DNA from: Firmicutes bacterium UBA1426
Lineage (GTDB): Bacteria > Bacillota > Clostridia > Peptostreptococcales > Anaerovoracaceae
Direction: 5' to 3'
Assembly (NCBI GenBank): GCA_002329675.1
Contig: DCUA01000221.1
Coordinates: forward strand, 1-13,164
DNA length: 13,164 nucleotides
In this document: one piece after another, positions 7,387-11,265 of the stretch
How the letters are laid out: each line of letters opens with the position of its first letter
Numbering within the stretch: the stretch's first letter is position 1
Program-made: the position numbers and the translations under genes
Notes under the pieces: generated by a model
The model's input: only the letters and a program-made list of their open reading frames with translations
Database searches by the model: none
What the model was told of the DNA's origin: nothing

Positions 7387-8349
7387 CTAAAGGAAATCCT
7401 TTGCTGCCTTAAGGCCATAAGCGGGCTCCGCCATCCTGGCCGCCCGGTTGATGGCTCTTGCCATGACATCTGCCGCTAAAGCTCCCACGGCATCCGGCAT
7501 GACTTCGGTTTCTCCCGTGGCAAGGACGAAGATGGTATCTCCATCAGCCATTGTGTGTACAGGGCGGATCGCTCTTGCAAAGCCGTTATGCGCTATCGAA
7601 GCGATCTTATTCGCCTGGGTTTTTGTCAGTTTGGCATTGGTAACAATACAGCCTATCGTAGTATTTCCGCTGAACACATTTCTGTTTTTGTCGTACTCCT
7701 CGTACATGGTTTTCTCGGTGTTGTAAATGGCGGTCTTGTCCTTATTCAGAATACCGGCAATGGCTTTTCCCGTGTCAACATCCACCACATCACCCAGGGC
7801 ATTGACCGCTACTATGGCTCCGATGATCCATTCACCTATTTGGACTGCATAGGTTCCGAGACCACTCTTCATCATATACTCCATCCCGAGAAATTTACCG
7901 ACAGTTGCGCCGGTGCCTGCTCCGACGTTGCCTTCCAAAGGTTTTTCTGACGAAGCATTCAAACAGGCCTGATAGCCCATAGCCTTATCCGGTCTGCATT
8001 TGGGGTCTCCAACTACAAGATCAAACAGGGAAGCTCCGCAGACGATTGGAACCACACCGACCCCGACATCAAAGCCTTTTCCGTTTTCTTCAAGATACTG
8101 CATCGCACCGGATCCTGCATCCAAACCGTAGGCGCTTCCTCCGGACAACATAACTGCATGGATCTGTTCTACCAGATTGACAGGTTTGAGAAGTTCTGTT
8201 TCCCTTGAAGCGGGCCCTCCTCCTCTCACATCCACACCGGCATAAGCTCCTTCCTCACACAGTATAACGGTGCAGCCGGTACCGCCCTCAACATTCTGGG
8301 CGTGACCTACTTTGATCTCTTTTATATCCGTAATGCTGACTTCTTTCAT
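7387..8349 (-). CDS. P1-family (DmpA/NylC-like) self-processing aminopeptidase
   Basis: This 320-residue enzyme is of the N-terminal nucleophile type (peptidase family P1, like DmpA, beta-peptidyl aminopeptidases and NylC). Family marks visible are GGTGCTVIL near residue 22, DVRGGGPASRET (40-51), LSGGSAYGLDA (68-78), GAGTGATVGK (143-152) and GNTTIGCIVTNAKLTK (228-243). By analogy the precursor cuts itself between N229 and T230, freeing Thr230 as the nucleophile of the small subunit. There is no signal peptide, so it acts in the cytoplasm. Members cleave N-terminal residues from short peptides or amides; the exact substrate is uncertain. The SD GGAGGAGGG ends 5 nt before the ATG. The gene lies 71 nt after the OPT transporter on the same strand, which suggests it degrades what that protein imports. 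Confidence 0.93.
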   Translation of the reverse strand: MKEVSITDIKEIKVGHAQNVEGGTGCTVILCEEGAYAGVDVRGGGPASRETELLKPVNLVEQIHAVMLSGGSAYGLDAGSGAMQYLEENGKGFDVGVGVVPIVCGASLFDLVVGDPKCRPDKAMGYQACLNASSEKPLEGNVGAGTGATVGKFLGMEYMMKSGLGTYAVQIGEWIIGAIVAVNALGDVVDVDTGKAIAGILNKDKTAIYNTEKTMYEEYDKNRNVFSGNTTIGCIVTNAKLTKTQANKIASIAHNGFARAIRPVHTMADGDTIFVLATGETEVMPDAVGALAADVMARAINRAARMAEPAYGLKAAKDFL

Positions 8350-8377
8350 TTTGTCCCTCCTCCAAATAAAATAATCT

Positions 8378-8400
8378 GTAGGGGCGGAATCCGCCCCTAC
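8378..8400. repeat. GTAGGGGCGG palindrome in the OPT-peptidase gap
   Basis: A 10-bp perfect stem, GTAGGGGCGG and CCGCCCCTAC, encloses a 3-nt AAT loop. It is far more GC-rich than the flanks. Sequences of this GTAGGGGCG type are familiar as dispersed intergenic palindromes in many bacteria, so a scattered repeat is likely; copy number cannot be judged from one copy. In the direction of the genes it is followed by the T-rich AGATTATTTTATTT, so it may also weaken or end transcription, or protect the 3' end of the OPT message. Confidence 0.85.
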
Positions 8401-8420
8401 GGAAAATCGGTTGAAAGCCG

Positions 8421-10073
8421 TTAGAGAGACTGCATGATTCGAACTGCCTGAATGAGTGCTATTATGACACCTACAACAGCCTCACCGCCTAAAAGACCCG
8501 CTGCGATGATCTGGCCATTCCCACCTTCTTCAAACTTTGGTGCAGCTTTCATGACGACAAACCGCAATGCTCCACCTATAAATGCTGTCATGGAAAGGTA
8601 GAAAGGCAGATAAACGCCGAGCCCCAAAGTCATGACCGGGAAGTTCACAATATAAAGTATGATAGCAGCAATCAATCCGATGACAAATGAGGGGATGTGA
8701 GAGATCCCACCCACCATTGCCGCAACAGCACTTGCCTGAGGTGCCGGGAACATATCCGGATTACCGAAGGCAGAGGGGCCATAGGCCTTTAAGATAACCA
8801 AAAGTACGACTACAGAGACGAAGGCACCTATGATGCCACCAATCACTTCGCCCAGCCACTGGGCTTTTGGATCGGATCTCAATATGTATCCGGCTTTGAA
8901 GTCGTTCATGACATCACCAACAAGTCCGCAGGCAACTGCGACGATAGCTGCTACAAAGAACGCTTCCGTCTGTCCGATGCTCGAGACGGCTTTTGTTGCC
9001 AGTAAAACGATGATTCCAAAGATCTCCATGGGGTTAATCCCTGATTGACCTACACATTGTGAAGACATGGCGGTTGCCAGCCATACGCCAATAATCGTAC
9101 AAATGGAGGCGACAATACCCATATCTGCTAAGAAGGTGAATATAAATGCCAGGATCACCATGACGATGGGGGCCCATCTGAGAGATACCATGCCACCACC
9201 GACTCCGCTCTTGCTGAACATAGGTCCGAATATTTCCTTTGCTTTTGGAAGAATTCCTTTCACGATGATACCGATACCGGTACCTACCATAAGGCCGATT
9301 CCAAGAGAGGATTTTATGCTGGCTGCCGTAGCCGCATCCCAAAGCCCTGCCATCTGACCCCCGATGAGGATCCCGAAATCACCGATGATGGCTCCAAGGA
9401 ACCACACACCGATAAATACAGGGCCGATAATAAACCCTACAGCGACAAGCATAAGAGAAAGCCACATGCCTCCCAGAGATCCAAAAGGCATCATTTTCTT
9501 AAACCATACAACGCCCGCGCCAAAGGTTCCAAACCAGTCTCTAAGCACTGTAAACAACGCTGCTACGCCCAGAGATGCAAATAAGGTGCCTGCTTTTTTC
9601 CCTCCTTCGTCTCCGACGATCAGGGTTTCTGCGGCTGCCTGCCCCATGGGATAGGGGAGCTCTTTAATTTCTATGAAATATTTACGAATAAGTGCTGTGA
9701 ATATCAAGCCTAAGATTACGCCACCCAGAGTAATAACTACCAATGCAACAGTACTGACCTCTGCATTTGCGTCCAGCATCCAGATACCGGGCAGAGTGAA
9801 GGCTAAACCTCCTGCTACCATAGCCCCCGCTGACATTGCCGTATGGGTTACATTGATCTCATTGATGTTGGTGTTCCCTAAAGCCTTCAACGCAAACATG
9901 GATACCAGGGCTACGAACATGATGGGCCAGGGTAAGGCGCCCAGCTTCAAAGCCACGAACATGGAGCTCATGGTCAGAATGATAGCTCCCACAGCTCCGA
10001 TGATCATTCCTCTCACCGTAAACTGTTCCTTGAAGGATGTCGCATACTTTGCAGATCTTTGTTCTTGTGACAT
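8421..10073 (-). CDS. OPT-family oligopeptide transporter
   Basis: This 550-residue integral membrane protein has a dozen or more hydrophobic segments spread over the whole length and no ATPase domain. It is a proton-coupled OPT/YSL-type importer, for which bacterial substrates are generally short peptides or metal-chelate compounds. Family marks are the N-terminal RGMIIGAVGAII segment, KELPYPMGQAAAETL near residues 137-151, GGMWLSLML near 200, DFKAGYILRSDPKAQWLGEVIG (about 390-411) and the C-terminal GNGQIIAAGLLGGEAVVGV. It is somewhat shorter than the common 600-700 residues but has both ends. An ideal SD AAGGAGGT (10087-10080) lies 6 nt before the ATG. It probably shares a transcript with the downstream P1 peptidase. 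Its long leader contains the RNA candidate described separately. Confidence 0.95.
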   Translation of the reverse strand: MSQEQRSAKYATSFKEQFTVRGMIIGAVGAIILTMSSMFVALKLGALPWPIMFVALVSMFALKALGNTNINEINVTHTAMSAGAMVAGGLAFTLPGIWMLDANAEVSTVALVVITLGGVILGLIFTALIRKYFIEIKELPYPMGQAAAETLIVGDEGGKKAGTLFASLGVAALFTVLRDWFGTFGAGVVWFKKMMPFGSLGGMWLSLMLVAVGFIIGPVFIGVWFLGAIIGDFGILIGGQMAGLWDAATAASIKSSLGIGLMVGTGIGIIVKGILPKAKEIFGPMFSKSGVGGGMVSLRWAPIVMVILAFIFTFLADMGIVASICTIIGVWLATAMSSQCVGQSGINPMEIFGIIVLLATKAVSSIGQTEAFFVAAIVAVACGLVGDVMNDFKAGYILRSDPKAQWLGEVIGGIIGAFVSVVVLLVILKAYGPSAFGNPDMFPAPQASAVAAMVGGISHIPSFVIGLIAAIILYIVNFPVMTLGLGVYLPFYLSMTAFIGGALRFVVMKAAPKFEEGGNGQIIAAGLLGGEAVVGVIIALIQAVRIMQSL

Positions 10074-10243
10074 GACAATACCTCCTTAATAATATCGATT
10101 CCTGATAATTGCTATAGTACTTCTATCCTCCTTTCATTATGAAACAATTACGTATTCGGTATTTGGGTATAGTAATGCTATTAATTAAACGATATTCTCA
10201 CTACAGTCTATCACAGATGCTCCAAAATAATCCAGACAATTAC
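10074..10243 (-). other. Proximal leader of the OPT gene; no coding sequence seen
   Basis: These 170 nt, AT-rich, link the U-tract at 10244-10250 with the OPT start. The only strong signal is the SD next to the start. A weak extended -10 (TGA-TAGACT, 10213-10205) could give a local promoter but has no convincing -35. A second SD-like AAAGGAGG (10134-10127) is not followed by a start codon. A short palindrome TTTCAT-A-ATGAAA lies beside it. Confidence 0.4.
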
Positions 10244-10269
10244 AAAAAAATCCCGAATGTGTCGTCAGG
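10244..10269 (-). terminator. Terminator-like hairpin and U-tract at the end of the RNA candidate
   Basis: On the minus strand CCTGA (10269-10265) and TCGGG (10256-10252) form a 5-bp stem with one G-U pair and an 8-nt loop, followed by A and seven T residues (10250-10244). The stem is short for an intrinsic terminator, so partial read-through into the OPT gene is plausible. Confidence 0.55.
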
Positions 10270-10496
10270 TTCCTAATTCACAACCTATCCCATGATAGGT
10301 GGGTTTTCTGTTCCTGCTTCTGTCTTCCTCTCAAAGGGGGCCTGACATAGGCGGCGGAAACGCGAAGTCCCGTGAACTAAACGTAGGTTAAATTACAAAA
10401 CCTTAACGAACACCTCAGGATCTTAATCATTAGTATGAGGACTTTCCTTGTCCTTATGCTGACAATGTTTTCAAAATCGATCTGTCCTTATTGGTT
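10244..10496 (-). ncRNA. Candidate structured small RNA or leader RNA of unknown family
   Basis: A near-consensus promoter places a start near 10496 and a U-tract follows at 10250-10244, giving an RNA of about 253 nt with no open frame of note. Visible stems are AGGAC/GTCCT with loop AAGGAAA (10454-10438), CCTGA/TCAGG closing a large arm (10419-10341) that contains CGGGA/TTCCG, ACCTATC/GATAGGT with loop ATGG (10300-10283), and the terminator stem. A purine-rich stretch separates the arms. I do not recognise the family. The segment CTGAGGTGTTCG (10418-10407) recalls part of 6S RNA, but the whole does not fold as one long rod, so I do not call it 6S. It could be a free small RNA, or a terminated leader controlling the OPT gene 170 nt downstream. 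Structure and transcription are inferred from sequence only. Confidence 0.5.
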
Positions 10497-10502
10497 GACT
10501 TG

Positions 10503-10531
10503 ATTATAGCACTAAAGCATCACAAAATCAA
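10503..10531 (-). promoter_or_regulatory. Strong housekeeping promoter of the RNA candidate
   Basis: On the minus strand TTGATT (10531-10526) and a perfect TATAAT (10508-10503) are separated by exactly 17 bp, with TGC before the -10 box (extended -10). It begins 9 bp past the yebC stop codon and points away from yebC. It is one of the best-matching promoters in the window. Confidence 0.8.
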
Positions 10532-10539
10532 CATATTCC

Positions 10540-11265
10540 TTATTCTTCGTCCAAAGGAACAGCACAGTTATGTGAGACTTTTTGAACATCGTCGTTTTCT
10601 TCGAGCATATCGATCATCTTTCTCAGGCTTTTCATCTCTGACTCTCCCGGAGTCGCTTCTATAGAAGGAACGAATTCCACATCCGCTTCCACGAAATCGT
10701 AGCCGGCTTGTTTCAAGGCATCTGATACAGCATTAAAGTTCTCCGGCAAAGTCTGAACTTCAAAACTATCTTCATGAATGAGAACATCTTCTGCCCCTGC
10801 ATCCAGTGCGGCTTCCATAAGTGAGTCCTCATCAATGGCATCGATTTTTTCGATTAAAAGGATTCCTTTCCTCTCAAACATGTAGGATACACATCCGGGG
10901 ACTCCGAGATTCCCTCCATGTTTATCAAATGCATGCTTGATACTGGAAGCTGTCCTGTTCCTGTTATCCGTCAGTACGTCAACGATCACGGCAACTCCAC
11001 CGGGTCCATATCCTTCAAAAATACCCGGCTCGTACGCTTCTCCGCCTAATTCACCTGTACCTTTTTGAATTGCACGGTTAATGTTGTCGTTGGGCATGTT
11101 GATGGCTTTTGCCTTATCGATGGCATGCTTTAATGCTACGTTATATTCAGGATCGCCTCCTGACTTGGCTGCAACAGAAATAGCTCTGGCATACTTGGTA
11201 AATATCTGTCCTCGCTTTGCGTCCTGGGCAGCTTTTCTGCCCGCTATCGTTCCATGTCTTCCCAT
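10540..11265 (-). CDS. yebC: YebC/PmpR-family protein (DNA-binding regulator or ribosome-associated factor)
   Basis: This 241-residue protein of normal family length begins MGRHGTIAGRKAAQDAKRGQ, a variant of the family N-terminus, followed by IFTKYARAISVAAKSGGDP. The family's central block is also present: AKAINMPNDNINRAIQKGTGE (about 53-73) and YGPGGVAVIVDVLTDNRNRT (about 85-104). The acidic C-terminal third, with SLMEAALDAGAEDV, is typical as well. YebC proteins were first described as transcriptional regulators; several bacterial members are now linked to translation through difficult proline-rich sequences. The sequence alone does not decide between these roles. AGGAGGT lies 5 nt before the ATG. 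The gene follows the dehydratase-related gene by 107 nt, which hold an inverted repeat. No ruvC or ruvAB, frequent yebC neighbours, lie in the window. Confidence 0.95.
   Translation of the reverse strand: MGRHGTIAGRKAAQDAKRGQIFTKYARAISVAAKSGGDPEYNVALKHAIDKAKAINMPNDNINRAIQKGTGELGGEAYEPGIFEGYGPGGVAVIVDVLTDNRNRTASSIKHAFDKHGGNLGVPGCVSYMFERKGILLIEKIDAIDEDSLMEAALDAGAEDVLIHEDSFEVQTLPENFNAVSDALKQAGYDFVEADVEFVPSIEATPGESEMKSLRKMIDMLEENDDVQKVSHNCAVPLDEE

Follow-up and report, generated by a model that had tools for sequence, protein, structure and literature searches.

The stretch of DNA analysed here (13,164 nt; hereafter the window) contains, on its minus strand between yebC and a gene for an OPT family transporter, an element of about 250 nt, and the question is which RNA this element encodes and from where it is transcribed. 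The first-pass annotation assigned it to no RNA class, considered it either a free small RNA or a leader whose terminator gates the transporter gene, and ranked it as the strongest candidate in the window for something undescribed; a search against Rfam covariance models, conservation in close relatives, and covariation in the predicted stems were proposed as checks. Genomes are denoted below by G numbers, G000 being the window's own draft genome. The features of the locus are collected in Table 1.

Table 1. Features at and around the 6S RNA locus, in window coordinates.
Feature	Position	Strand	Basis
yebC, upstream neighbour	10540..11265	-	NCBIfam NF001030/TIGR01033 above cut-off
Distal sigma-A-type promoter, TTGATT-17-TATAAT, TG before -10, predicted start near 10496	10503..10531	-	sequence; G002 likewise
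5' leader, ~72 nt, predicted distal start to 6S 5' end	10425..10496	-	inferred from promoter position and Rfam boundary
Proximal block, GCATAAGGACAAGG-N8-CATACTAAT, possible second promoter	10429..10459	-	common to G000, G002, G023, G032
6S (SsrS) RNA gene, mature-like region, ~179 nt	10246..10424	-	RF00013 and covariation in 30 aligned copies
3' arm of closing stem and T run, likely intrinsic terminator	10246..10269	-	sequence and fold
OPT family transporter, downstream neighbour, not a conserved partner	8421..10073	-	Pfam PF03169

Identity and structure of the RNA

A scan of the whole window with Rfam 15 at curated thresholds returned two matches in all, a tRNA and, on the minus strand at 10246-10424, 6S RNA (RF00013), the latter with 63.6 bits against a gathering score of 46.4 and E-values of 6.2e-11 in the window scan and 2.1e-12 for the 451-nt stretch 10090-10540. 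The match spans positions 1 to 187 of the 187 in the model and is not cut off, and its score is moderate, the alignment containing several small deletions relative to the model and some mispaired positions. A permissive Rfam scan of 10090-10540 gave RF00013 as its sole match, with no other family for the leader. Because this single match of the stretch is RF00013, the statement that the element matches no RNA class had to be abandoned, and its ranking as a candidate for something undescribed gives way to a known family; an undescribed RNA class is ruled out by the Rfam match together with the covariation given below. One 6S copy was found in the window's draft genome. The tRNA gene (RF00005) lies near the window edge, at 21-100 on the minus strand.

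The hairpin-rich, non-coding character reported for the stretch was confirmed, in that it holds no open reading frame of at least 60 amino acids and folds better than shuffled sequences: 10238-10424 reaches -59.1 kcal/mol (z -3.59; 1 of 200 shuffles equally good), and z -2.01 when the leader is added (3 of 200). A rod composed of closing stem, central bulge, and terminal stem appears both in this single-sequence fold and in the consensus fold of 30 aligned copies, taken from 52 located copies with the weakest-scoring ones (G005, G015, and G059) and the contig-end-cut copy of G023 left out. The RNAalifold consensus of these 30 copies has 45 pairs, of which 92.2% of cells are paired (77.9% in shuffles) and 33 show two-sided changes (21.6 in shuffles), with a covariation score of 0.462 (0.198 in shuffles); none of 500 shuffles reached the alignment on any of five measures, in a test that somewhat favours the structure since the structure was derived from the same alignment. 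Structures slid along the alignment left only 38-48% of cells paired. Invariant in all 30 copies are GG-CC beside the bulge (columns 57-58 with 139-140) and CG and GC in the closing stem (columns 17-18 with 183-184), and the bulge sequence AACCTAC equals the majority consensus, which is compatible with a role as template for product RNAs. The short stem and seven T residues described at the end of the element are present as well, the stem being just part of the 3' end of the long closing helix that joins the two ends of the 6S RNA.

Distribution and genomic neighbourhood

The RF00013 family was detected in 49 of 61 genomes (the window's own and 60 relatives), in 45 of them above the cut-off, and in 39 of the 42 genomes with a completeness of 90% or more and a contamination of 5% or less. 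Ten of the 12 genomes without a family match belong to the same family and were searched at the DNA level, yielding a clear copy in the same-genus genome G002 (88% identity over 235 nt spanning the RNA and part of the leader), a 53-nt partial match in G028 (E 5.8e-5), and nothing convincing in the other eight, two of which are the well-assembled G004 and G001, a draft from the same genus. When the sample was widened to 296 same-family genomes, 134 had a DNA match (E up to 1e-6). G004, 100% complete by estimate, contains spoIVA, and its 6S RNA, found neither by family model nor by DNA, may be absent or too diverged. The two refuting conditions set in the first pass, lack of conservation in close relatives and lack of covariation in the stems, thereby both came out in favour of a real RNA.

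Neighbourhoods were determined by tblastn with the window's own proteins, by which a very distant OPT protein could be missed, and the window was included in the family counts. Of the 25 same-family loci whose upstream flank reaches 800 nt or more, 17 have yebC on the same strand 8-1027 nt ahead of the 6S RNA, and yebC is likewise upstream in 2 of 25 order-level loci. An OPT gene follows, at gaps of 29-1011 nt, in 4 of the 23 same-family loci whose downstream flank is 1 kb or longer, and in none of 25 order-level loci, which were counted whatever the length of their flank; the 6S RNA thus has no fixed association with OPT. An attenuator gating the transporter gene, as suggested by the common strand, the terminator-like stem and T run, and the correctly given distance of ~170 nt from 10246 to the start codon at 10073, was rejected on this synteny and is extremely improbable, as the RNA is kept while OPT follows in few loci and the whole element is already explained by 6S RNA. 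From the initial alternative of a free small RNA or an OPT leader, the first thus stands, as 6S RNA, and the second falls, the RNA being kept whatever lies downstream.

NCBIfam OPT models match the transporter gene below their cut-offs. Downstream of it lies a gene for a family S58 peptidase (PF03576), and the two (7387-10073, minus strand) form a plausible pair for peptide uptake and cleavage. Between them, at 8375-8403, lies a near-perfect inverted repeat with 14-nt arms (93% complementary, 1-nt gap), a candidate for either a terminator or a dispersed palindromic repeat.

Taken together, family membership, fold, covariation, the T-run end, and genomic place directly support the element as the 6S RNA gene of this genome, ordinary in itself, with a probability of roughly 0.97.

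Distal promoter and leader

The promoter described in the first pass was recovered on the minus strand, where TTGATT starts at 10531 and TATAAT, 17 nt further and preceded by TG, ends at 10503. By number, promoter-like sites are not enriched (1 found; shuffles average 1.4), and the same arrangement, including the extended -10, recurs in the same-genus genome G002. Moreover, a TATAAT ending 78-98 nt ahead of the 6S RNA is encountered in G000, G002, G023, and G032. A transcript from the predicted start would carry a leader of ~72 nt ahead of the 6S 5' end and would thus be a precursor of ~250 nt. Such a precursor is not unusual, as clostridial 6S RNAs of two or three sizes have been published and interpreted by the authors as processed forms (excerpts of PMC3649979 and PMC3879012): the C. 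difficile 6S RNA (RCd3), with sigma-A -35 and -10 elements, gives bands of about 200 and 175 nt (PMC3649979), and that of C. acetobutylicum gives three bands (PMC3879012).

Transcription would probably start near 10496, at the distal promoter, with trimming of the ~250-nt precursor to ~180 nt, or near 10424, at a proximal promoter, or at both. Two further candidates in the leader were discarded: an AGGAC/GTCCT hairpin as a conserved structure, and a short open reading frame from a start codon near 10430 (judged by eye), neither of which is kept in G002.

A conserved block in front of the 6S RNA

Immediately before the 6S RNA (about 10425-10459), a block (GMATARGGACAARG...CATAMTA) is conserved in four genomes of three genera, G000, G002, G023, and G032, while the leader ahead of it is not. 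Over the last 45 leader nt, G000 has 38, 31, and 31 identities with G002, G023, and G032, values reached by 0, 2, and 0 of 500 shuffled pairs, and further upstream the same comparisons resemble shuffles (328, 343, and 147 of 500); the three remaining pairs among these genomes follow the same pattern. The block stands at the same distance from the 6S RNA in G000, G002, and G032 and one base closer in G023. As a putative element, the block is supported by this conservation.

Judged by the consensus letters of sigma-E and of B. subtilis SpoIIID, the layout resembles a sigma-E promoter, with a -35 (GCATA), 17 nt, and a CATA -10, and contains a SpoIIID-like GGACAA; sigma-H and sigma-K, judged by their consensus letters, seem to fit less well. 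Within the 100 nt preceding the 6S RNA, KMATA-N16-18-CATA is present in 4 of 78 genomes, which are exactly the four block genomes, and in 8, 22, 81, and 72 of 2000 shuffles of their leaders, counts that overstate its weight because the pattern was chosen after the block was seen. These 78 upstream regions, 51 from genomes with spoIVA and 27 from genomes without, remain from 90 genomes fetched among the DNA-matched ones after the removal of 12 (10 with spoIVA, 2 without) in which no anchor for the 6S start was obtained; where an anchor contains many mismatches, its placement may in some cases be wrong.

The SpoIIID-like core WWRRACAR is found in the blocks of G000, G023, and G032 and is absent from that of G002; it is frequent by chance, occurring in 395-726 of 2000 leader shuffles and in 16 of the 78 upstream regions. 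Family-wide, RRACAR-N10-CATAMTAAT is present at 29 places in 28 of 349 genomes, three of which are the 6S blocks of G000, G002, and G032, and it misses G023, whose block deviates; a reversed-pattern control is about as frequent (31), so that this pattern is not specific by itself. A contig pattern scan for the block gave three stretches, two with the same upstream sequence as G002 and G032 and one of Clostridium simiarum, where inspection by eye of the 500 nt read revealed no 6S RNA. The block is absent from the close sporulating relatives G009 and G014, G009 having a plain TATAAT in its place. In a midpoint-rooted tree of the short 6S sequences, from which G005, G015, and G034 were left out and in which G023 is partial, the four block genomes do not form a clade, and their common ancestor is also ancestral to G009, G026, and six others without the block.

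Readings of the block

Three readings of the block were weighed. It is possible, at somewhat less than even odds, that the block is a weak housekeeping (sigma-A) promoter with CATAMT where relatives have TATAAT, its spacer binding another regulator or none. By eye, TATAAT is indeed found at about the same distance from the 6S RNA in several relatives, e.g., G009 and G113; however, the thresholded promoter scan picked up the distal promoter only, and a conserved spacer (GGACAA) is unexpected for a plain sigma-A promoter. As a separate observation, eight relatives with spoIVA (G072, G096, G105, G113, G153, G164, G187, and G215) seem by eye to have two -10 boxes before the 6S RNA, a distal one resembling TATAAT or TATACT and a proximal one reading CATATAAT or AATATAAT.

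A processing signal in the precursor, recognised by a nuclease that trims the leader, is rather doubtful. It would agree with the two or three sizes published for clostridial 6S RNAs (PMC3649979 and PMC3879012, as excerpted above) and with the AGGAC/GTCCT hairpin predicted in the leader, but this hairpin is impossible in G002, where its 3' arm is replaced by A-rich sequence, and the near-constant distance between block and 6S RNA is promoter-like.

The third reading, an unlikely one, takes the block as a mother-cell sporulation promoter of the sigma-E type with a SpoIIID box, from which 6S RNA would be made anew from its mature 5' end. Consistent with it, GMATA-17-CATA recurs in four genomes of three genera whose leaders further upstream are no more alike than shuffles, the CATA stands at -13 from the 6S 5' end, and among the 78 upstream regions the layout is confined to the block genomes; that the pattern was picked post hoc counts against it, as do the chance frequency of WWRRACAR and its lack in the G002 block. 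The excerpt of PMC517825 gives lengths of 8 and 10 nt for the sigma-E elements of B. subtilis, separated by 12 (+/-1) nt, and a SpoIIID box KRTAACARK has been proposed for C. difficile (excerpt of PMC5025042), which AAGGACAAG of the window fits only in part.

The sporulation genes point both ways. spoIVA, present in 84 of the 296 genomes of the family sample, was found in all four block genomes and in G009, and not in G026; spoIIID was detected in five of eight genomes searched, namely the block genomes G002, G023, and G032, as well as G009 and G014. In the window's draft, spoIIID was not found, spoIVA is in two pieces, spoIIIAA is above the cut-off, and the sigma-E model matches only below its own (best 236.9 against 348.6 bits), this model being unspecific, with matches in 10 of 14 control genomes. 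GCATA precedes spoIVA in all four block genomes, with TATATT instead of CATA at the -10 position; in G000 and G002, spoIIIAA is preceded by GAATA with CATA 16 nt further. A loose sigma-E-like pattern was encountered in 8 of 13 upstream regions of spoIVA, spoIIIAA, and spoIID, a count that covers sporulation genes only and no control genes. Against the reading stand the sporulating genomes G009 and G014, which do not have the block. The block occurs in 4 of the 51 genomes with spoIVA and in none of the 27 without, numbers too small to establish a connection between block and sporulation. Two side observations concern G000: at C108 (8895-10308) and C74 (10603-11186), the matches to spoIVA and to a sigma-E-like gene are both split into pieces, which may reflect assembly errors or broken genes, and upstream of spoIIIAA at L109 (C67), several GGGACAGACCCC-like repeats in both orientations are seen by eye.

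The fuller proposal that the 6S gene of this lineage is served by two tandem promoters, the distal one for housekeeping and the proximal one for the mother cell, where sigma-E would read it under modulation by SpoIIID, is slightly less likely still and is offered as a tentative suggestion. Among the papers searched, none joined 6S RNA, clostridia, and yebC, and none paired SpoIIID with its consensus string; the one paper naming both 6S RNA and SpoIIID concerns another RNA, as far as its title and the start of its abstract indicate. No claim is made that a 6S sporulation promoter is absent from print.

Discussion

As a 6S RNA, the element is ordinary, and its identification chiefly corrects the first reading of the locus. 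By analogy with its family, the rod with its open central bulge would imitate an open promoter, bind the housekeeping RNA polymerase holoenzyme, and hold the polymerase back, and the RNA would come off again upon transcription of short product RNAs from the bulge by the polymerase. The excerpt of PMC12005410 describes both promoter mimicry and product RNAs for 6S RNA. Polymerase binding, product RNAs, and a role in growth phase are thus expected of this copy from family knowledge. If the proximal block were a sporulation promoter, it would directly link an RNA that generally holds the polymerase to the mother cell's change of sigma factors, and with tandem promoters 6S RNA would be made on purpose in that cell, helping to hand the polymerase to the sporulation sigma factors.

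Compared with known systems, the RNA shares with the 6S/SsrS family (RF00013) the full-length model match, the rod with central bulge, and the closing stem followed by a T run; it differs by several small deletions only, and nothing was seen in it that falls outside the family. With the C. difficile RCd3, whose two sizes suggest a primary and a processed form, it has an upstream sigma-A promoter in common (PMC3649979, in excerpt), but here ~72 nt separate this promoter from the mature end, and a longer precursor is predicted. In B. thuringiensis, according to the excerpt of PMC7726162, deletion of 6S-1 lowered sporulation, and 6S RNA likewise arises as a precursor, possibly followed by processing; its 6S-1 and 6S-2 genes stand in tandem as an operon under a common promoter with canonical -35 and -10 elements, whereas one copy was found in the draft genome analysed here.
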